From contig NZ_LT607750.1 of NCBI RefSeq assembly GCF_900090235.1, positions 4,827,001 to 4,891,000 of the forward strand: DNA of 64,000 bases. The letters are read 5' to 3'. This document shows positions 33,824 through 47,280 of this stretch, in pieces. How positions within the stretch are numbered: position 1 is the stretch's first letter; every line of letters begins with the position of its first letter. The notes below the pieces were generated by a model. It was not told the DNA's origin and did not search any database. It saw only the letters and a list, made by a program, of their open reading frames with translations. Both the position numbers and the translations under genes were made by a program. This DNA comes from Micromonospora echinaurantiaca. GTDB taxonomy: Bacteria; Actinomycetota; Actinomycetes; Mycobacteriales; Micromonosporaceae.

Positions 33824-34756
33824 ATGAGCTACGCCAAGGTGCTCTGTGTGGGGCTGGTCGGGGTGACCGGGCACCTCGTCGAGGTGGAGGCCGACCTCGC
33901 GCCCGGCCTGCCAGCGGTGGTGATCTCCGGCCTGCCGGACACCGCCTTGCACGAGGCCCGGGACCGGGTCCGGGCGGCCGTGGTCAACTCCGGCCAGCGT
34001 TGGCCGAACCGGCGGATCACCCTCAACCTGCTGCCCGCCACCCTGCCGAAGTTCGGTTCGGCGTTCGACCTGGCCATCGCGGCGGCCTTGCTGGGCGGCT
34101 CCGGCGAGCTGCCGCTACTCCCGCTGGAGCGGGTGGTGGTCCTCGGTGAACTGGGACTCGACGGCACGGTCCGGCCGGTGCGCGGCGTGCTGCCGATGGT
34201 CGCGGCGGCGGCCCGGGCCGGCGTCGACCGGGTGATCGTGCCGGCCGACAACGCCGCCGAGGCGGCGGTCATCCCCGGGATCCGGGTCCGCGCGGTGGAC
34301 ACCCTGCACCGGTTGGTCAGCTTCGTCCGCGACGGCGAGCCGCTGATCGAACCGGCCGCCGACGAGCCACCGCCGGCCGGGGAGGGCCCCGATCTGGCCG
34401 AGGTCGCCGGGCAGGAGCTGGGCCGGCGGGCGCTGGAGGTGGCGGCGGCCGGCGGCCACCACCTCGCGCTGCTCGGGCCGCCCGGAGCCGGCAAGACCAT
34501 GCTCGCCGAGCGGCTGCCGTCGATCCTCCCCGAACTGGACGACGCGGACGCGTTGGAGGTCACGGCACTGCACTCGATCGCCGGACTGCTGCCGGCGGGC
34601 GGCCGGCTGATCCGCCGCCCGCCGTTCCAGGCGCCGCACCACAGCGCCACCGTGCCGTCGCTGGTCGGCGGCGGCTCGGGGCTGGCCCGCCCGGGCGCGG
34701 TGTCGCTGGCCCACCGAGGGGTGCTCTTCCTTGACGACGCGAAGTCAAACCTTTGA
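33824..34756 (+). pseudogene. comM: comM (yifB) 5' part, interrupted by the integrative element
   Basis: The N-terminal 304 residues of ComM/YifB, a Mg-chelatase-like AAA+ helicase. ComM promotes branch migration during natural transformation in Gram-negative bacteria; the role in actinobacteria is not settled. The ChlI-like domain (about 1-190), Walker A GPPGAGKTML (about 218-227) and the start of Walker B (GVLFLD) are intact. The frame then enters the element and ends after six foreign codons (DAKSNL) at 34756. Walker B lacks its Glu, so the fragment should be inactive. The remaining codons resume at 46669. Precise excision at GACGA restores a 506-residue protein. Confidence 0.93.
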
Positions 34757-34760
34757 CGCC
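34733..34760 (+). other. attL: core GACGA plus element arm
   Basis: The comM sequence GTGCTCTTCCTT leads into the core GACGA (34733-34737), then the element arm ending ACCTTTGACGCC (34749-34760). That arm is the inverted partner of GGCGTCAATGGT at 46649-46660. Joining both ends gives a 48-bp attP centred on GA. Confidence 0.85.
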
Positions 34761-34781
34761 GCCCCCCTGCTCACCTACCCT
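34753..34781 (+). promoter_or_regulatory. Predicted int promoter overlapping the att arm
   Basis: TTGACG (34753-34758), 17 bases, then TACCCT (34776-34781) matches a housekeeping sigma promoter. Its -35 box is part of the attP arm, so integrase bound to its own site would cover the promoter. The int GTG lies 29 bases past the -10. An inverted repeat CCCTGCC/GGCAGGG (34778-34784, 34797-34803) brackets the expected start site. Confidence 0.6.
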
Positions 34782-34809
34782 GCCCAAGCATCCAGTGGCA
34801 GGGGGAAAC

Positions 34810-36381
34810 GTGGGCAGAGTTCTCGGCGTGATCCGGCTCTCTCGGGAGCGCGAAGAGTCGACCTCGGTCGCACGGCAGCGCGCGTACATCACGGCATGGG
34901 CTGAGCAGAACGGACACACGATCGCTGGGTGGGCCGAGGACGAAGGCGTGAGCGGCAGCGTTCCGCCGTGGGAGCGCCCGCAGCTCGGCGAGTGGCTGCC
35001 AACCAGCCTCGGCGGCAGGGCAGACGTCGCCCGGTTCGACATCCTCTGCGCCTGGCGGTTGGACCGGGTGTCCCGCCGGGTGCTGCACCTCGCCGCACTG
35101 ATGGACTGGTGCAAGAGCACGGGCCGGGCCATCGTGTCGACCTCGGAAGGGTTCGACATCAACTCCCCGATGGGTGCGGTGTTCGTCAACATCCTTGCCG
35201 CGCTGGCGGAAGGCGAACTTGAAGCGATCCGGGAACGTGCCCGGTCATCGTTCGCCCACCTGATGAAGCAGGGTCGCTGGCGCGGTGGGTTCGTGCCGTA
35301 CGGGTACCGGGCCGTCAAGGCTGAGACCGGCCAGGGTTGGCGGTTGGAGATCGACCCAGAGACCAGCAAGGTTGCGCGGGAGATCGTGCGCCGGATCATC
35401 GCCGGGGAGTCGGCCAACTCGGTTGTGCGCTGGCTCAATGAGACAGCCACGCCGAGCCCGCTCGACGCTCAGCGGGTACGCGCCGGGAAGGCAACGACCG
35501 GCACCGAGTGGCGCGTGGCCAACCTGCTCAAGATGCTGCGCTCTCACACCCTGCTCGGGTACGCCGAGATGACCGAGACTCGCACTCGGCCGGACGGCAC
35601 CAGGGAGACGTTCGCTCGGCTGGTCCGTGGCGAGGATGGGTTGCCGTTGCAGCGTGCCGAGCCGGTCGTGAGCGCTGCCCAGTGGGAGCAGCTACAGGAA
35701 GCGTTGCGGAAGAACGCCAACCCGAAAGCAGGCAACCGAGTCGGCGGCTCTCCCCTGCTGCGCGTGGCGTACTGCGAGTGCGGGGAACCCCTGTACCGCA
35801 ACCGAGGACGGCACGGCATGTACTACCGCTGCGGTCTGCGTGCCCGCGCTGGCCGGAACTGTCCCGAGGGCATGACCTCGATCCCCGCTCACGTCCTGGA
35901 GCAGATCACCGAACAGACCTTCCTACTCGTGGCCGGCGACCTGGAGGTGATGCGCCGGGTGTTCGTCTCCGGATCGGACCATGCCGCCGAACTCGCCGAC
36001 GTAGAAGAGTCCCTTGCCGAGTTGCGGGAGCACCTCACCGCCGGTCTGTTCCGTGGCGAGCGAGGCAAGGCAGAGTTTGCCCAGATGTACAGCGCGTTGG
36101 AGGCTCGCCGGGAAGCGTTGGAGGCGTTGCCGTCCAAGCCGGATCGGTGGGAGTTGGAGCCGACCGGGCAGACGTACCGGGAGCGGTGGGCGACGCTGAC
36201 CACGGCAGCGGAACGCAACCGGGAGATGCGGGAAGCCGGGCTCAAGGTGATCGTGTACGCGCTCCCCTCGGATGAAGAGTTGGAAGCGATGAACGATCCC
36301 GATGAGTACAAGCGGGTGCGCGTGATCATCCCCGAGGATCTGATGGAGCGGGTGCAGGCGAACGCAGCCAAGGCAGCCTGA
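34810..36381 (+). CDS. int: Large serine recombinase (site-specific integrase)
   Basis: A 523-residue serine integrase. The resolvase domain (about 1-150) has catalytic Ser11 in VIRLSREREESTS and the WRLDRVSR motif around residue 85. It is followed by the recombinase domain (about 165-270, GRWRGGFVPYGYRAV...) and a zinc-ribbon (about 320-350) with CECG, a Cys in YYRCG and NCPEG, then a predicted coiled coil (EESLAELREHLTAG, about 400-440). The GTG at 34810 sits after AGGGGGAAA. It inserts the circular element into the comM attB (Walker B codons) and, with the Xis/RDF, should excise it. Confidence 0.95.
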   Translation: MGRVLGVIRLSREREESTSVARQRAYITAWAEQNGHTIAGWAEDEGVSGSVPPWERPQLGEWLPTSLGGRADVARFDILCAWRLDRVSRRVLHLAALMDWCKSTGRAIVSTSEGFDINSPMGAVFVNILAALAEGELEAIRERARSSFAHLMKQGRWRGGFVPYGYRAVKAETGQGWRLEIDPETSKVAREIVRRIIAGESANSVVRWLNETATPSPLDAQRVRAGKATTGTEWRVANLLKMLRSHTLLGYAEMTETRTRPDGTRETFARLVRGEDGLPLQRAEPVVSAAQWEQLQEALRKNANPKAGNRVGGSPLLRVAYCECGEPLYRNRGRHGMYYRCGLRARAGRNCPEGMTSIPAHVLEQITEQTFLLVAGDLEVMRRVFVSGSDHAAELADVEESLAELREHLTAGLFRGERGKAEFAQMYSALEARREALEALPSKPDRWELEPTGQTYRERWATLTTAAERNREMREAGLKVIVYALPSDEELEAMNDPDEYKRVRVIIPEDLMERVQANAAKAA

Positions 36382-37282: not shown

Positions 37283-37444
37283 CTACCGCAGGCCGGCTCG
37301 CTTCATCGCGCGGTGGTTGGCCTGCCGGCAACGATCGCCGCAGAACTCCCGCACGTACGCCCGATCCTCGGGCAGCGGCTCGGCGCACCAGCCGCAGAGA
37401 CCCTGTTGCCAGCGCCGGATGCGCTCGGCATCGGTTGGGATCAC
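37283..37444 (-). CDS. Small zinc-ribbon protein, 53 residues
   Basis: A 53-residue protein, VIPTDAERIRRW..., with two Cys pairs: CGWC at about residues 17-20 and CGDRC at 35-39, typical of a zinc ribbon. Its GTG overlaps the stop codon of the HNH-like gene by GTGA (37441-37444), so it is translationally coupled and is the last gene of that leftward group. The function is unknown; small Cys-rich proteins like this are common in actinomycete elements and phages. Confidence 0.6.
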   Translation of the reverse strand: MIPTDAERIRRWQQGLCGWCAEPLPEDRAYVREFCGDRCRQANHRAMKRAGLR

Positions 37445-38121
37445 GCTGCCACCCCCTCAACCTGGTCGCGGGTCGCCATGAACAGGGCAACGTGAGCGAG
37501 GGACGGACCACCCTCGGGCACCCTGCGGTGCGCGTTGTCGAACCGCTTGTGACAGGGGCGGCACATCGGCGAGTAGTGGTCAGGGTTGGTGCTGTACGGC
37601 TTGCGCGCCTCGCGACCCTTGATCATCGCTCGCTCGTCGTAGTCGGCATGCGAGTAGGCCCAGTCCTCGGCCTGGTTCCCGCAGCGGCAGGTGTAGAGGC
37701 TGGCGCTGCCTCGCTGAGCCTTCACGCGGTTGTGTGCGCCGTCGTACGTGAGCAGTTCCCGTCGCCGACTGTCCGGGTGGTTGGCCCGGTCGGCGCAGTT
37801 GGTCGTGATGCCGTTGGCAACGTTGTTGATCTGCAACGCCTTGACGTTCCCGCACTCGCAGCGGAACAGGGCCCGAGGGTCGCCGCTGGCGCTTGACTCG
37901 ATCCGCTCGACCAAGGTCAGACTCCCGTACACGTTGCCCGGCTTGTGCTTCTGCCGGCTCGGCATGGTCGCAGCCCGAGGGGTCGGGACGTAGGCGCGCT
38001 GATGCTTGGCCTTGCCCTGGCAGATCTTCCCGCAGTAGCGCGGGGCGGGTCCCCGCTTGCCCGCAGGCTTGGGCGGGATGGGTCCGCCGCAGTGCTGGCA
38101 GGTCCGGTTGTCGATGTTCAC
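37441..38121 (-). CDS. HNH-like/zinc-ribbon protein of the element
   Basis: A 226-residue protein with several predicted zinc sites. The N-terminal CQHCGGPIP...RYCGKICQGKAKHQRAY (about residues 7-38) looks like a zinc ribbon. RCECGNVKALQINNV...NC (about 78-105) resembles the AP2/HNH-associated zinc knuckle, and the C-terminal YSTNPDHYSPMCRPCHKRFDNAHRR (about 175-200) has the C..C...H pattern of HNH endonucleases. GTG start at 38121, with AGGAG further upstream. A homing- or packaging-type endonuclease is possible, but the catalytic His-Asn-His is not fully clear. Confidence 0.65.
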   Translation of the reverse strand: MNIDNRTCQHCGGPIPPKPAGKRGPAPRYCGKICQGKAKHQRAYVPTPRAATMPSRQKHKPGNVYGSLTLVERIESSASGDPRALFRCECGNVKALQINNVANGITTNCADRANHPDSRRRELLTYDGAHNRVKAQRGSASLYTCRCGNQAEDWAYSHADYDERAMIKGREARKPYSTNPDHYSPMCRPCHKRFDNAHRRVPEGGPSLAHVALFMATRDQVEGVAA

Positions 38122-38179
38122 TGTCTCTGTCTCCTGTTCGTCAGATAGGCCCGCGCGCCTTGCGCAGCGAGCCGTAGAG

Positions 38180-38199
38180 CCCCGATCCGCGGAGCGGGG
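38180..38199. repeat. 20-bp palindrome between two zinc-finger genes
   Basis: CCCCGATCCGCGGAGCGGGG is palindromic with one mismatched pair and forms a compact hairpin between the 97- and 226-residue genes. It may be a weak terminator or processing site. Confidence 0.35.
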
Positions 38200-38221
38200 T
38201 GGGTTGGTGCCGGTCCTGCTC

Positions 38222-38515
38222 TCAGCAGCCGTCAGAGGCTTGATGCGCAGCGGTGATCTCGCGTTGCTGGCGTCGCGCCCAGCGGTTCCGGTGGTAGTCG
38301 GTGCAGAACTTGGATGCCCTGCCGCTCTTGATCGGCACAGGCTTGCCGCAGTCGAGACACGCCGGACCGTCGCTCGGCTCCTGGCCGATGAGTAGCCCGA
38401 GGTGCCCGTGGTGCCGCCAGCGTCGCCAGTGCGTCTGGCAGAGCCCTCGGGCTCGGTGTGGTCGGGTGCAGTGCTCGACCAGGCACCCCCGGTCGGTGTG
38501 TTCGTTGTTCGCCAT
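38222..38515 (-). CDS. Two-zinc-finger small protein, 97 residues
   Basis: A 97-residue Cys/His-rich protein. The first motif, CLVEHCTRPHRARGLCQTHWRRWRHHG (about 11-37), is the knuckle found at the start of many phage HNH proteins. The second, CLDCGKPVPIKSGRASKFC (about 53-71), is a zinc ribbon like that in the next gene. No clear enzymatic residues are seen. It may bind nucleic acid and work with the adjacent 226-residue protein. The start at 38515 has no strong ribosome site. Confidence 0.6.
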   Translation of the reverse strand: MANNEHTDRGCLVEHCTRPHRARGLCQTHWRRWRHHGHLGLLIGQEPSDGPACLDCGKPVPIKSGRASKFCTDYHRNRWARRQQREITAAHQASDGC

Positions 38516-38580
38516 GTCATGTCCGCAGAGGGAAGGGGAGAGCAGGTGCGGACCTACCTGCCCTCCCCGTTGTCCCTCGG

Positions 38581-42040: not shown

Positions 42041-42141
42041 TCGCCGCTGAGCAAGCCACGTAGCCGGGCTCGCTGGTCGGGTGTCAGGGGTGGTGCCTCG
42101 CTGGCGATGCGCTCGGCGATGCGCCGCAGTTCCTCGCTCAA
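42037..42141 (-). CDS. Small helical peptide, 34 residues, next to xis
   Basis: A 34-codon frame starting with TTG that overlaps the xis stop as TTGA, and ending with a TGA that overlaps the next GTG. The product is two short helices (SEELRRIAERIASEAPP and TPDQRARLRGLLSG). Peptides of this kind, with an APPLTP-DQR-RL pattern, often follow xis in actinomycete elements (from memory), so I regard it as a real gene despite its size. Confidence 0.5.
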   Translation of the reverse strand: MSEELRRIAERIASEAPPLTPDQRARLRGLLSGE

Positions 42142-42326
42142 CGGCCGATCTCCCGTGCGTACCGCTCAACCTCGCTGACCGGGTAGAGCACCCTGCCGAG
42201 CTGCCGGATGTAGGTCATGGGAGAGCGAGCCTCGCTGCGCTGGTTCCGCAGGGTGCCGACGCTCAGCCCGAGGTGTGCCGCTGCCTCGCGGGCGGTCATG
42301 TACTCGGTGCCGTCGATGATGATCAC
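42138..42326 (-). CDS. xis: Excisionase-like helix-turn-helix protein
   Basis: A 62-residue MerR/excisionase-type DNA-binding protein. The winged helix reads YMTAREAAAHLGLSVGTLRNQRSEARSP, followed by RVLYPVSEVERYARE. GTG start at 42326 with GAAGGA upstream. Such proteins in AICEs and phages act as directionality factors for excision or as regulators. It is first in the leftward chain xis, 34 aa, 58 aa, 111 aa, 129 aa. With a serine integrase the true RDF can be any small protein, so the name is tentative. Confidence 0.75.
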   Translation of the reverse strand: MIIIDGTEYMTAREAAAHLGLSVGTLRNQRSEARSPMTYIRQLGRVLYPVSEVERYAREIGR

Positions 42327-42439
42327 GGGTGGTGTCCTTCCCGCCCGTTGCCGGGCATGGCTCGATGGGGACAGCCGGGATGGCTGCCCCCTGGTGGGTG
42401 GTGGTGGTTGATGCCCCGGCATCACTGGTCAGGGCCATG

Positions 42440-42914: not shown

Positions 42915-43256
42915 CTACTCGGTGACCACCTGGGCGACGGCAAGGAGATCCCGCCATGCCTCGGCAGCCTGGTCGACGCTCGGCAGCGAGGTGACCGGCT
43001 GTCGCCCGTACAGACCGATGACCGGGCGACCGTCAGCCGTCGTGCCGATGTGGACCAGGTCCCCGTCGTCATCCTCGCTCGGCTGCCAGCCTCGCCGACT
43101 CAGGTCACCGATGACGTGATCCCAGTCGGCAGCGTGCAGGCTGACCATGCCGCCGAGGTCGATGTCATCGGCCACCCGAGGCAGGACCAACAGACCCTCG
43201 CCGGTCATCGGGTCAAGGTGCGCGGTGTGGCTGGCGTAGGTCAGGGTCTCGATCAC
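42915..43256 (-). CDS. Hypothetical protein coupled to the translocase
   Basis: A 113-residue protein with GTG start overlapping the translocase stop by GTGA (43253-43256). It is acidic (ADDIDLGG, SEDDDGDL) with HTAHLDP and VSLHAADWDHVIGDLSRRGW segments. No family recognised. Its position as the last gene of the transfer operon suggests a helper role in DNA transfer. Confidence 0.6.
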   Translation of the reverse strand: MIETLTYASHTAHLDPMTGEGLLVLPRVADDIDLGGMVSLHAADWDHVIGDLSRRGWQPSEDDDGDLVHIGTTADGRPVIGLYGRQPVTSLPSVDQAAEAWRDLLAVAQVVTE

Positions 43257-45013
43257 TGGCTGATCCTCTCTCCGGTCTCGCTGCCCGCCCACCGGGCAAG
43301 ATCTGCTCTCGCGTACAGGTCTGCGTTGCCGCTCTTGCCCCTCGGCGTAGGCACCTCGCCCACCTTCCGCTGTAGACGCTTCTTCGCTGCATCCAACTTC
43401 CACGGGATCACCCCGGCGTCGATCGCCTGACGCAGCGTCAGGAAGTCCCCGGCAGGGCTTGATAGGCCGCTGACCTGGGAAGTCCCCGAGGACCGGGGAC
43501 ATGCCAGCCGGCGAGCGTCGGCAGCGGACAGGTACGCCACCTGCACCTCGGTCGCCTGCCCACCGATGACCACCTGCCACCGACCGAGGGTCCGGGATGC
43601 ACGGGGCATGGCTGCCTCGGGAACCAACATCTTCCAGTTGTTCGCCGTGTATCGGGCGAGGCAACGGATGCCGAAGTTCTCCCGTGCCTCGGGTCCGCCA
43701 ATGGCGCGAGCGGTCAGCATCTGCGCGATGGCCAGCACGTTGACCTTGGCGCTGCGCCCCATGAACAGCAGGTCAGCCAGAGCCGAGACAGCCGGCGACC
43801 GCTTGGGGTCACCCTTGCCGCGCACCTCGGCCCAGAAGTTGACCAGTTGCCCGATGGTGGCGTTCAACTCCTCGGCGATGACCAGGACTCGGGGACCGCA
43901 GTCCCAGTCTTCCGGCTCGTGCAGGGCCAGCGTGTTCCGCTCATCGGCAAGCGCAGCCAGCCTGACCAGGGCGTCATGCATCTGTGCCGGGCGGGTGCAG
44001 TAGTCGACGCCAGCCAGACCGAGCGCCCAGCGGTGCGAGCCCTTGCGGTCGAGGATGACCACCCGCCCACCTCGGGCGAGCACCTGCACGGCGACCAGCT
44101 CGGCAAGCACGCTCTTGCCCGCACCCGTCCCGGCAGAGACCGCGATGTGCGGGGAATCGTCCCGCAGGGACAGGATCACCGGCTGATCGCCTGCACCCTG
44201 CCCGATGTAGAACTCCCACTCAGCCAGCCGGGGCAGGTGCTCGGCGACCTGGTCGACACCGACCCGAGCCGGCGGACGCTTACGCACCGTCCACGTAGCC
44301 GTTACCCGCGGACCGACCTGGTGCCAGGACTCGACCAGGTCAGAGACCGGGATCTTGCTGCCGATGATCGAAGAGACCAGGTGCCGTTGCTCCTTGGTTA
44401 GATACGGGGTGTCGGCAACCAGCTCGATACGCGGACCCTTGTCGGGATCGGTCGGCCGGCGGAACACAGCCAGCCGAGAGGTGACCGGCTCTGCCTTGCG
44501 CTGGATCGCCCACGCTGCCCGCTGAGCCTGGTCGGGCAGCCACCGGATCACCGGCTCTACCCGCTCGCCGTACCAGGCACGCACGGCCACCTCAGCGGGT
44601 GACAGAGGCTTGGCCAGCCGAGGGGTGAGGTTGCCCAACGTCGGATCAACGTGCAGCCGTACGCCGGTCTGTAGACCCATCGCCGGGGCAAGGGCAGCCA
44701 GGGTCGGGGTGACGTACTCCCGGTTGAACCGGCGCATGGTGAACCGGCGACGCGCTCGCCAGCCGGCGACCAGTGCAGCCGAGCCGACCAGTGAGCCGAC
44801 CTGCTCGGGCTGAGCCACTGCCAGCGCAGCCGTAGCCGGCACGCTGAGCCGGATCACCTGACGCTGCCAGCCGGCGAGCCGACCAGCACCCCGGCTCAGG
44901 TACGGGTAGCCGTCCCTGCCGGTGATGGGTCGACCCGACACGTAGCGGTAGACCAGCCGGGGCACGGTGTGCTTGCGCCGTAGCCGGCGGATGGCTCGCT
45001 CAAGCTCGGTCAT
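43253..45013 (-). CDS. FtsK/SpoIIIE-like DNA translocase (TraB-type conjugal transfer protein)
   Basis: A 586-residue hexameric-ATPase type protein. The N-terminal half has a hydrophobic region (about 53-85) that should anchor it in the membrane. The RecA-like motor has Walker A GTGAGKS (295-301) and Walker B RVLVIAEEL (375-383). The C-terminal LTLRQAIDAGVIPWKLDAAKKRLQR (about 530-555) could be a winged helix that reads DNA repeats. Single FtsK-like Tra proteins pump double-stranded DNA between mycelia in Streptomyces plasmids and AICEs, and bind 8-bp repeats in the clt locus (family knowledge). The ATG overlaps the SpdB stop by ATGA. Confidence 0.9.
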   Translation of the reverse strand: MTELERAIRRLRRKHTVPRLVYRYVSGRPITGRDGYPYLSRGAGRLAGWQRQVIRLSVPATAALAVAQPEQVGSLVGSAALVAGWRARRRFTMRRFNREYVTPTLAALAPAMGLQTGVRLHVDPTLGNLTPRLAKPLSPAEVAVRAWYGERVEPVIRWLPDQAQRAAWAIQRKAEPVTSRLAVFRRPTDPDKGPRIELVADTPYLTKEQRHLVSSIIGSKIPVSDLVESWHQVGPRVTATWTVRKRPPARVGVDQVAEHLPRLAEWEFYIGQGAGDQPVILSLRDDSPHIAVSAGTGAGKSVLAELVAVQVLARGGRVVILDRKGSHRWALGLAGVDYCTRPAQMHDALVRLAALADERNTLALHEPEDWDCGPRVLVIAEELNATIGQLVNFWAEVRGKGDPKRSPAVSALADLLFMGRSAKVNVLAIAQMLTARAIGGPEARENFGIRCLARYTANNWKMLVPEAAMPRASRTLGRWQVVIGGQATEVQVAYLSAADARRLACPRSSGTSQVSGLSSPAGDFLTLRQAIDAGVIPWKLDAAKKRLQRKVGEVPTPRGKSGNADLYARADLARWAGSETGERISQ

Positions 45014-45762
45014 GCCGCCACCCCCGCAAGCTCGGGCGTACCGCCGTTGACCGCAGTCGACGCAGGCTGCGCCGGGGAAGGCGAGCCAGCCGAGCGGGTC
45101 GGCCGGTACCGCTTCACCGTCGCCACCGAGACCCCGGCAAGCTCAGCGATCCGGGCGTGCGTCGCATCCGGCTCGGCGAGGTGAGCCGACATGATCCGGT
45201 CAGCCGACGTGAGCGAGCGGGGAACAGGCTTGCGGCTCGGCTCACTGGTCCGCTTGACCGGCTGAGCCTTGCTCGGGGTAGGGGTCACCTCGGCCGGCTC
45301 GGCTACGGGCTCAGGCGCAAGCGGCTCGACCCGCTCGACGGCCACCGGCTCAGCAACCTTGACCGGCTCGACCTGGTCGACCGGCTCAGGCCGGATCAGC
45401 TTGCCTCGACGGGACAGCACCTCGACGGCAAGCAGGAAGGCGACCGGGGAGACAGCGGCGACCAGGCGGGCAGTGATGGTCGGCTGCGCGCTGGCGATGT
45501 TGGCAGCCAGGGTCGCCACCACACCGAACGCCACGGCGAGCCGAGCGGACAGGCGAGGCTTCCGGCCGTTCCGCTTGTCGTCAAGCATCGCGAGCGTGCC
45601 GACCAGGATCAGCCCGTCGATGGACAGCGGGAGCACGGCAGCGACCGACGCTCGCTCGCCAGCCTCGCGGGCTACGTCGTAGATGTGGGTGAACGATGCG
45701 TAGCCGGCGACCAGGGCGACCAGGCCGGTAGTCAGTCGAGAGGTGATGGCAGTACGGGACAC
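45010..45762 (-). CDS. DUF2637 (SpdB-like) membrane protein with C-terminal HTH
   Basis: A 250-residue protein. Four membrane helices (about 10-118) hold the DUF2637 signature GYASFTHIYDVAREAGE...VLPLSIDGLI. A Pro/Val/Glu-rich linker leads to a C-terminal helix-turn-helix (about 200-225, THARIAELAGVSVATVKRYRP). DUF2637 proteins are common next to traB in Streptomyces plasmids and are thought to spread the plasmid inside the mycelium (Spd). GTG start at 45762. Its partner is the translocase that overlaps its end. Confidence 0.88.
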   Translation of the reverse strand: MSRTAITSRLTTGLVALVAGYASFTHIYDVAREAGERASVAAVLPLSIDGLILVGTLAMLDDKRNGRKPRLSARLAVAFGVVATLAANIASAQPTITARLVAAVSPVAFLLAVEVLSRRGKLIRPEPVDQVEPVKVAEPVAVERVEPLAPEPVAEPAEVTPTPSKAQPVKRTSEPSRKPVPRSLTSADRIMSAHLAEPDATHARIAELAGVSVATVKRYRPTRSAGSPSPAQPASTAVNGGTPELAGVAA

Positions 45763-45773
45763 GGCAGGACTCC

Positions 45774-45941
45774 TCAGAAGCGGGTGGGGACGTTGGGAAC
45801 GTCCGAGAGGTGGGCGATGTCGTCGGCGACCTGCTCTGCGTGCCGCTCAGCCAGCCGGCGAGCGATGACGAACGGCGCGAGCATCACGACGGGTCCGCCG
45901 ATCAGGACCAGGACCAGGGCGTAGGCAGCGGTGTCGGTCAC
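45774..45941 (-). CDS. Small single-pass membrane protein
   Basis: A 55-residue protein with one transmembrane helix (AYALVLVLIGGPVVMLAPFVIARRL, about 5-28) and a charged tail. Its GTG overlaps the stop of the iteron-bearing gene by GTGA (45938-45941). It lies between that gene and the SpdB-like gene, and may be a small Spd protein. Confidence 0.6.
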   Translation of the reverse strand: MTDTAAYALVLVLIGGPVVMLAPFVIARRLAERHAEQVADDIAHLSDVPNVPTRF

Positions 45942-46570
45942 GCCGCACCCCCGATCGCCTCGCTGCGGCAAGGTCCGCAGTTGTTGGCGGGAGATCCCCG
46001 GTGCTTGGGGCACTGCTCGGCGCGAGGGTCGGTCGGCAGCGCAGCGCCGCCCCGAAGGGAGCGGCTGCGCGGGGATGGTTCTTGATGGTTCAAGGACGGT
46101 TCGTAGGAAGCCTGCTTCCGGCCGGTGCGGAAGCCTGCTTCCGGTCGCTTGGAAGCCTGCTTCCGGTCGGTCGGTACCGGGGGGAAGCAGGCTTCCGGGC
46201 GGTTATCCACAGGCTCGGGAACCTCGTTGGGTCGACCAGGCTGCGGCTCGGCGAACGGGTCGAGCGAGGTGGGTAGGGTGCGCCGACGCTCCATCGCGAG
46301 ATCCCAGACAACCGGCCGCCGGTCGGTGGGCAGGTGCGCTACGTGCCGCTGATCGCCACGGCGGATGATCCCGAGCCGTTCCAGCGTCGCCAGGTCGGTA
46401 CGCACCGAGCGGGTCGACTTCCGGGCGTAGTGGGCGAGCCGTTCCTGAGACGGGTACGCGGCTCGGCCGTTGGCGTGCGCGTGGTTGGCGAGACCGATCA
46501 GCACAGCCAGGCAGGCGGGGGGTACGTCGGGCGCATCGTTCAGCGCCCACGAGACAGCTTCTACACTCAA
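45938..46570 (-). CDS. Winged-helix protein, candidate replication initiator with internal iterons
   Basis: A 210-residue protein. The N-terminal winged helix (about 15-75) reads ACLAVLIGLANHAHANGRAAYPSQERLAHYARKSTRSVRTDLATLERLGII, of the kind found in phage O-type replication proteins and plasmid initiators. A disordered Pro/Arg-rich linker (about 95-175) is encoded by a stretch with four palindromic iterons and a DnaA box. The C terminus has CPKHRG...CGPC, a likely zinc site. I chose the TTG at 46570, 9 bases after a perfect GGAGGT. It is first in the transfer operon, beside attR. Alternatively it is a transcriptional regulator of that operon. Confidence 0.7.
   Translation of the reverse strand: MSVEAVSWALNDAPDVPPACLAVLIGLANHAHANGRAAYPSQERLAHYARKSTRSVRTDLATLERLGIIRRGDQRHVAHLPTDRRPVVWDLAMERRRTLPTSLDPFAEPQPGRPNEVPEPVDNRPEACFPPVPTDRKQASKRPEAGFRTGRKQASYEPSLNHQEPSPRSRSLRGGAALPTDPRAEQCPKHRGSPANNCGPCRSEAIGGAA
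46074..46211. repeat. Iteron block and DnaA box inside the initiator gene (candidate oriV)
   Basis: Four 14-mer palindromes of type GGAAGCCTGCTTCC lie at 46106-46119, 46129-46142, 46151-46164 and (inverted) 46183-46196, spaced 23, 22 and 32 bases, about two or three helical turns. A perfect DnaA box TTATCCACA follows at 46203-46211. On the other side are three short direct repeats GATGGTTC/GACGGTTC (46074, 46084, 46095). The layout is that of an iteron-type replication origin. Confidence 0.75.
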
Positions 46571-46648
46571 GGCGGGTCGACCTCCACTGTCGGCCAAGGC
46601 CCCGGATCACAGGTGTTGGCGCACCTGCCGGGGCCGCTTTGTAGATGT

Positions 46649-46673
46649 GGCGTCAATGGTGATCGCTCGACGA
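46649..46673 (+). other. attR: element arm plus core GACGA
   Basis: The element arm GGCGTCAATGGT (46649-46660) leads to the core GACGA (46669-46673), after which comM resumes as GGCGCCCGAGTTC. The arm matches the reverse complement of the attL arm at 11 of 12 bases. Confidence 0.85.
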
Positions 46674-47280
46674 GGCGCCCGAGTTCAGCAAGGGGGCGCT
46701 GGACGCGCTGCGCCAGCCGTTGGAGAACGGCCGGATCCAGCTGGCCCGCAGCCGGGGCGGCACCGAATATCCGGCCCGGACCCAACTGGTCCTGGCTGCC
46801 AACCCGTGCCCGTGTGCCAAGCCGGGCGGCGACACCTACTGCGAGTGCTCACCGCTGGTGCGCCGGCGCTACCTCGGCCGGCTCTCCGGTCCGCTGCTGG
46901 ACCGCATCGACGTGCAGGTGCGGCTGCCCCCGGTCCGGGCGGCCGAGCTGATGCAGGCGACCGTTGCGAGCGAGTCGTCGGCGGCGGTCGGCCGGCGGGT
47001 GGTGGCGGCCCGGCAGGCGGCGGCCGCCCGCTGGTCGGCGATCGGTCGCCGGCTCAACGCGGAGATACCCGGCCCGTTCCTGCGCCGCCCGCCCTGGCGA
47101 CTCGCCGCCCCGGACACCGCCGAGCTGCGAGCGCGACTGGACTCCGGGTCGATCTCCGCCCGCGGCTTCGACCGGATCATCCGCCTCGCCTGGACCATCG
47201 CCGACCTGGACGGGCGGGACCGGCCCGACCGGGAGGACGTCCGGGAGGCCATCGGACTCAGGACGGGGGAAGGATCGTGA
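46669..47280 (+). pseudogene. comM: comM (yifB) 3' part, after the integrative element
   Basis: The C-terminal 203 residues of ComM, starting at Asp-Glu of Walker B (DEAPEFSKGALDALRQPLENGR). It keeps the zinc-like Cys motif ANPCPCAK...CECSPL, the arginine finger region and the C-terminal Mg-chelatase domain (DTAELRARLDSG...SARGFDRIIRLAWTIADLDG). An in-frame TGA lies in attR just upstream (46660-46662), and the first possible start is the TTG at 46720, past Walker B, so no useful ATPase is expected. Its stop overlaps the dprA GTG by GTGA. Confidence 0.92.

Follow-up and report, generated by a model that had tools for sequence, protein, structure and literature searches.

A candidate replication initiator with an embedded origin on an integrative element of Micromonospora echinaurantiaca

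Repeats and a DnaA box inside a winged-helix gene

We analysed a 64,000-nucleotide stretch of the Micromonospora echinaurantiaca genome (contig NZ_LT607750.1, positions 4,827,001 to 4,891,000; hereafter the window), in which an element of ~11.9 kb, resembling the actinomycete integrative and conjugative elements (AICEs), splits a comM/YifB gene. The last gene of this element encodes a winged-helix protein matching the Pfam family HTH_36 (E 3e-10), and it is this gene, together with the repeats that lie within it, that concerns us here. Its likely start is the TTG at 46570, which gives 210 residues, the same length as an identical protein (P0002) among the homologues; the start chosen by the open reading frame (ORF) finder, 46597, lengthens the product by 9 residues. 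The relevant features are as follows.

45938–46570, minus strand: candidate HTH_36 initiator gene (210 residues from the TTG at 46570; 219 residues from 46597 in the ORF finder)
46397–46402, minus strand: codons of recognition-helix residues x1 and x2, Arg-Thr (R66 T67 in the 219-residue numbering, R57 T58 in the 210-residue numbering)
46031–46285, minus strand: linker, predicted to be disordered, holding the candidate origin (residues 96–180 of the 210-residue protein)
46203–46211, plus strand: DnaA box TTATCCACA, perfect
46183–46196, no strand: iteron palindrome GGAAGC-NN-GCTTCC, first in the coding direction, 14 bp, perfect
46151–46164, no strand: second such palindrome, 14 bp, perfect
46129–46142, no strand: third such palindrome, 14 bp, perfect
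46106–46119, no strand: fourth such palindrome, 14 bp, perfect
46074–46102, plus strand: three GA[TC]GGTTC repeats (starts 46074, 46084 and 46095), a candidate unwinding element in the lowest-GC part of the gene
45941–46030, minus strand: C-terminal module with a CxxH..CxxC pattern (residues 181–210)

Over residues 11–180, that is, most of the winged helix and the linker, the product matches phrog_1032, annotated "replication initiation protein" (E 2.6e-21), and it matches O-like PHROG families more weakly; the Pfam phage replication O domain was not among the four families listed at E up to 1. An AlphaFold2 model from a 22-row alignment (mean pLDDT, the model's confidence score, 59) shows a winged-helix region up to about residue 91 and an ordered C-terminus, joined by a linker of low confidence between residue 96 and about residue 180. 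The phage-type C-terminal domain (YPRK..WLN), which we take to be family-defining, is absent from the window protein, its place being taken by the CxxH..CxxC module.

An earlier reading of the sequence alone (hereafter the original prediction) had proposed a candidate initiator with its own iteron origin, citing four such palindromes spaced 23, 22 and 32 bases, a perfect DnaA box beside them, three repeats on the other flank and a disordered linker around them; the repeats and the box all lie where it put them, the palindromes with these spacings when counted from start to start, and the model agrees with its disordered linker. A window scan allowing two mismatches gave 6 palindrome matches against a shuffle mean of 4.0, and the perfect ones were the four in-gene copies only; across the organism's own genome (7,203,133 bases, 1 contig) perfect matches are again exactly these four, while TTATCCACAGG occurs 3 times. 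TTATCCACA is the sole DnaA-box match in the window at up to one mismatch, and a lone match of this kind is not rarer than chance (at least one in 77 of 100 window shuffles). The flanking repeats read GATGGTTC at 46074 and at 46084 and GACGGTTC at 46095, and the 40-bp window of lowest GC in the gene (46078–46117; 50% versus a gene mean of 70%) overlaps part of the GATGGTTC repeats.

In a recoding control that kept the protein unchanged under three codon models (within-gene codon shuffle, element usage and host usage; 5,000 trials each), four same-arm palindromes arose in 0 of 5,000 recodings under every model and three palindromes in 3, 1 and 0, respectively; the DnaA 9-mer arose in 74, 50 and 11. 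Moreover, the palindromes occupy two reading frames, encoding RKQAS twice and RPEA(C/G)F twice on the coding strand. Because one palindrome is written in two frames and four never arose by recoding, we conclude that selection acts at the DNA level on the in-gene sites.

Homologues and the recognition-helix covariation

Protein searches returned 226 matches at E 0.001 or better. Initiator matches were present in 56 of 354 genomes, and the matching records include 25 of plasmids and 77 of phages; "replication initiation protein" is the annotation on 5 of 40 matching phage records among those listed. Of 37 loci, 24 were retained for alignment (at least 48% identity; nine loci dropped by name). 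In these Micromonosporaceae loci each gene mostly has linker repeats of one kind, which differ from those of other genes, and chains are often spaced 30–33, 22 and 22–23 bp. Repeats mostly 22–24 bp apart occupy the same linker in phages Andrew, RedFox, CF183a and Bbif-1 and in a Thermobispora plasmid, and are followed there by AACC-type repeats (GAACCGTC at 11–13 bp spacing in Andrew and RedFox). Natural repeat classes in the relatives include GGACGT and GGGGCGAAG.

Two repeat statistics were set against synonymous shuffles, with significance taken at the 5% level. The first, based on exact 8-mers, reached it in 25 of 42 viral, 9 of 24 Micromonosporaceae and 4 of 4 named loci and in 0 of 5 negative genes (the window gene: 2 of 200 shuffles), and the second, an approximate-repeat statistic, in 23 of 42 viral, 17 of 24 Micromonosporaceae, 3 of 4 named phage or plasmid loci and 1 of 5 negative genes. 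Since both statistics reach this level in part of the loci, in-gene repeats are common in the family and not demonstrable in every member; the homologue search for linker iterons that the original prediction had proposed thus succeeded for many relatives but not, by these tests, for all. It had also named plain regulators without iterons as the finding that would speak against it, and the opposite was found: many homologues carry phased linker repeats, and some are phage proteins with an initiator annotation. As a separate observation, the negative gene passing the approximate-repeat test (0 of 100 shuffles) is ORF 37441–38520, which has a weak HNH endonuclease PHROG match.

Codon conservation was evaluated in 17 of the 24 Micromonosporaceae loci as identity over conserved residues. 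Mean codon identity was 0.57, and six-column windows above 0.8 occurred only at residues 129–135 and 160–173. The first of these is the DnaA box, with CCT in 10 of 11 and GAT in 10 of 10 cases, codons that make up 3% of proline and 8% of aspartate codons, respectively, in the host genes of the window; the second is iteron 4 together with the AACCGTCC element. In one locus (L025; locus and genome handles are ours) TTGTCCAC is kept in the opposite orientation, encoding VVHS versus PVDN in the others, and a one-base difference in the AACCATCAA element yields either SLNHQEPS or SLTIKEPS. A core DnaA box is present in 18 of 24 Micromonosporaceae, 7 of 42 viral and 1 of 4 named loci and is a lineage feature; the Cys/His pattern at the C-terminus occurs in 21 of the 24 Micromonosporaceae loci, and phages of the Andrew type have YPRK..WLN and mostly lack the box. 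The initiator genes of L023 and L044 hold three core DnaA boxes each, one of them inverted and encoded by different residues.

The repeats vary together with two residues of the recognition helix, which in the close family reads R[SAT][VI]-x1-x2-DL with R or Q at x1. According to a rule written from the Micromonosporaceae before the phage and viral loci were read, R at x1 accompanies an outer GGA and Q an outer GGGG[CT]G, while R at x2 accompanies an inner AC and any other residue an inner AA. Among 70 loci examined, the x2 rule holds in 59 of 59 scorable loci and the x1 rule in 53 of 58 scorable loci with Q or R. The scorable Micromonosporaceae loci agree throughout (23 of 23 for x1 and 23 of 23 for x2), and the 46 viral and named loci agree in 14 of 15 cases with Q and 16 of 20 with R at x1 (11 with another residue fall outside the rule) and, at x2, in 16 of 16 cases with R and 20 of 20 scorable cases without (10 unscorable). 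Fisher tests on these 46 loci, which ignore relatedness, gave P-values of 2e-5 for x1 and 1e-10 for x2. In a protein table whose rows overlap the DNA loci and for which the patterns were drawn up once the family had been inspected, the helix motif is found in 68 of 121 proteins, 62 of them classified; x1 fits in 59 of 60 and x2 in 62 of 62.

In a scan of all alignment columns, x2 (T67) predicted the inner class better than any other column at all three redundancy levels, with leave-one-out success in 56 of 56, 34 of 34 and 24 of 24 testable rows and corrected information of 0.72–0.86, compared with 0.23–0.34 for the next column; among loci less than 65% identical, x2 stands at 0.72 and the next column at 0.31. 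With all loci included (55 of 60), as with those below 80% identity (31 of 36), x1 (R66) was the top column for the outer class; below 65% it ranked third (21 of 26). This covariation is most simply explained by direct contact of x1 and x2 with the repeats; the HTH_36 protein probably binds the repeats that its own gene carries.

The element and its neighbours

The remaining features of the element are listed below.

34753–34760, plus strand: TTGACGCC, left arm of an 8-bp inverted repeat at the element ends
34753–36381, plus strand: large serine integrase (Resolvase and Recombinase domains, PF07508 E 9.2e-13; phrog_95 E 4e-110)
42138–42425, minus strand: small HTH_17 protein, candidate excisionase (Pfam and PHROG)
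43253–45013, minus strand: FtsK/HerA-like motor, candidate transfer protein (DUF87 E 5.4e-8; phrog_1358, FtsK/SpoIIIE-like, E 5.6e-5)
45010–45762, minus strand: DUF2637 protein (E 7.4e-20)
46649–46656, plus strand: GGCGTCAA, right arm of the inverted repeat, with comM resuming just past it

Of the features by which a published survey recognised AICEs (PMC3218068), the site-specific integrase is present (PF07508 E 9.2e-13), and PF01580 was not among the seven families matched by the transfer protein at E up to 1, a DUF87/HerA match being found instead. We call the element "AICE-like" because its motor shows the DUF87/HerA match and the FtsK/SpoIIIE-like PHROG match instead of one to PF01580. 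Pfam scans of 16 element ORFs recognised no RepSA, RepAM or Prim-Pol family (the genome-wide searches covered RepSA and Prim-Pol). RepSA occurs in 18 of 18 genomes examined, and on contigs shared with a homologue the nearest RepSA is 113 kb and the nearest Prim-Pol 204 kb away, in accord with the original prediction that no known AICE replication module is recognisable here; these distances, like those to DUF2637 and the recombinase, are limited by draft contigs. In 7 of the 18 genomes a DUF2637 gene is found no more than 0.4 kb from the homologue, and 12 other DUF2637 matches in the same genomes lie within 1 kb of RepSA. Since DUF2637 adjoins one or the other, the HTH_36 gene takes the place that RepSA has elsewhere. 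In 7 genomes a serine recombinase domain is found 8.5–11.5 kb from the homologue, and full-length relatives of the motor accompany it in three loci (L005, L006 and L052; blast). Two short contigs showed no terminal overlap.

Several side observations concern this setting. A related element in M. arborensis (L005:9013–10010 against window positions 34690–34770 and 46620–46700) appears to be inserted into the same comM but to face the other way: its initiator end adjoins the 5′ part of comM, as against the 3′ part in the window. Symmetry of the serine-integrase core could account for this. The closest homologue in a named genome (L051:8698–11006; 87% identity) adjoins a ComEC-like competence gene rather than comM. 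Five RepSA matches lie elsewhere in the window's own genome (G000), so that several AICE-like elements may coexist in a single cell and differ in their replication modules. PADLOC matched the motor to mad8 (E 3.9e-8) and the small HTH protein (42138–42425) to mad1 (E 4.9e-5), matches that probably reflect common AAA and HTH folds.

A probable embedded origin, its alternatives and its precedents

We consider it likely, from comparisons of sequence, that the HTH_36 gene is a replication initiator whose origin is embedded in its own coding sequence, a lambda-O-like, iteron type of origin on an AICE-like element, and that this origin is probably assisted by DnaA. The support consists of DNA-level selection, covariation between protein and sites, kinship to annotated phage initiators and the absence of a known AICE Rep nearby; the homologue repeats, the helix covariation and the phrog_1032 match together support the initiator that the original prediction had put forward. 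The winged helix, probably as dimers, would bind the four phased palindromic iterons in the linker DNA, and their helical phasing would gather it into one nucleoprotein complex. The AT-richer GA[TC]GGTTC repeats would then melt, and host DnaA at the adjacent box could help to open the DNA or to bring in the helicase, perhaps standing in for a lost helicase-recruiting domain. The excised circle would replicate, most likely by the theta mode, so that a copy could stay behind while the FtsK-like motor exports DNA.

Several results weigh against this interpretation. The window gene is not significant by the approximate-repeat statistic (18 of 100 shuffles), which one of the five negative genes also passes; 6 of the 24 close loci have no DnaA box; and no helicase loader was recognised in the element by Pfam and PHROG scans. 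In 18 of 25 long homologous loci, blast matched no other element protein, so that the initiator is not tied to this transfer module and lives in other settings. The viral test of the helix rule was not fully blind, as the scoring patterns were widened after the viral repeats had been seen, and 5 of 35 viral or named loci with Q or R at x1 break the x1 rule (L088, with Q, scored GGA; L099, L105, L111 and L065, with R, scored GGGGYG). Finally, a tree built without the helix requires at least five changes for x1 and at least three for x2 and gives one supported independent pair only; because a single pair lies on well-supported branches, a formal test of independent change is impossible, and column specificity is a stronger argument than tree changes.

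Among the alternatives, it is possible, though we think it unlikely, that the protein regulates transcription within the element, with the in-gene palindromes serving as operators that tune expression of the downstream DUF2637 and FtsK-like genes at the level of transcription. Equal binding data would be expected in that case, and the gene indeed probably heads an operon that includes DUF2637 and the motor; yet it also holds the RepSA slot beside DUF2637, and its sites lie in the coding region alongside a DnaA box and AT-richer repeats. The winged-helix fold is likewise common among regulators, but the phage relatives are replication initiators by both annotation and PHROG family. Autoregulation may accompany an origin function. 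Far less probable is a clt-like transfer locus, in which the repeats would be recognised not by the winged-helix protein but by the FtsK-like motor: the clt of pWTY27 is described as having direct repeats and lying partly in traA (PMC3583192), but the repeats studied here track the recognition helix of the winged-helix protein, not the motor, and they also occur in phages such as Andrew and CF183a. Least probable, by a little, is that a disordered linker simply repeats at the protein level and that the covariation reflects shared ancestry only, since, often repetitive as linkers are and few as the supported independent changes on the helix-free tree may be, one DNA word appears in different frames, recoding never gave four copies of it (0 of 5,000) and one column stays far ahead even below 65% identity (0.72 versus 0.31).

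The embedded-origin interpretation finds its closest parallel in phage lambda, where dimers of O on four 19-bp iterons are described as building the O-some, with two DnaA-box-like sites downstream of the pO promoter (PMC3985674), and where ori-lambda is located inside gene O (PMC7157519). Both initiator genes carry their own four iterons; the window protein, however, is an HTH_36 winged helix without a Pfam match to lambda O, its iterons are 14-bp palindromes, its element is integrative and no P-like partner was recognised. The phrog_1032 Arthrobacter phages Andrew and RedFox share a homologous winged helix and in-gene repeats spaced 22 bp and followed by GAACC-type repeats, but they differ in their C-terminus (YPRK..WLN rather than the Cys/His module) and in their repeat class (GGGGYG); a DnaA core box is present in RedFox and absent from Andrew. 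The Streptomyces linear plasmid pSLA2 reportedly has a phage-like origin near rep1.

Other precedents share single traits. SGI1 is described as an integrative element having an iteron origin with a DnaA box (PMC7433901); it is likened here by arrangement only, not by Rep kinship, its oriV lying downstream of rep rather than inside it and its hosts being enterobacterial. The Paracoccus plasmids pAES7, pMARC3, pMOS2 and pAES1 are reported to encode HTH_36 replication initiation proteins and to carry iteron-like repeats (PMC3832669), but, compared by description only, these alphaproteobacterial iterons belong to separate oriVs and are not stated to lie within rep. In the mycobacteriophages Miko and Jeeves an HTH RepA is described as necessary and sufficient for replication, with an origin suggested to be inside repA or adjacent to it; unlike the present case, again by description only, these are extrachromosomal prophages, and the authors report no repeats in the region that they searched (PMC7157519). 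The replication modules described for AICEs are RepSA, RepAM and Prim-Pol, RepSA being a rolling-circle initiator and RepAM predicted to be one (PMC3218068). These modules occur in a similar kind of host and share the neighbour DUF2637, but neither RepSA nor Prim-Pol lies near the present gene, and RepAM did not turn up in the Pfam scans.

The original prediction had held that an iteron module in an AICE would be new. Among publications on AICE replication and iterons, in a search with most subscription journals outside its scope, no title or abstract opening describes one; the novelty is nevertheless narrower than claimed, because the iteron origin and DnaA box of SGI1 and the HTH_36 plasmid Reps with iterons are already in print. 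With less confidence than for the initiator itself, we lean towards an additional class of replication among the integrative conjugative elements of actinomycetes, in which an HTH_36 initiator related to those of phages holds the complete origin (DnaA box, four phased iterons and unwinding repeats) in its own linker. Initiator and origin would change in concert by a two-residue code, from which iteron sequence, and with it incompatibility, could be predicted from the protein across phages, plasmids and integrative elements. Published search criteria leave such a class out: the AICE survey searched for RepSA, RepAM and Prim-Pol and would therefore miss elements like this one, whose proposed mode of copying that survey does not list (PMC3218068). 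If the embedded origin follows the recognition helix, binding sites and incompatibility would be predictable from sequence, phages and integrative elements would have a replication module in common, and the co-change of initiator and origin could be tested directly where both share one piece of DNA.

Two observations concern the spread of the family. The Pseudomonas phage vB_Pae_CF183a (L063:3001–3840) encodes a member whose corresponding linker contains five GGGTGCAA repeats, and the initiator matches 21 phage records named for Pseudomonas, so the family reaches beyond Actinomycetota. A single Micromonospora genome (G242; contigs C126, C68, C106, C95, C91 and C62) holds eight initiator matches, so that several copies whose repeats are similar coexist there; two of the eight have internal stops.
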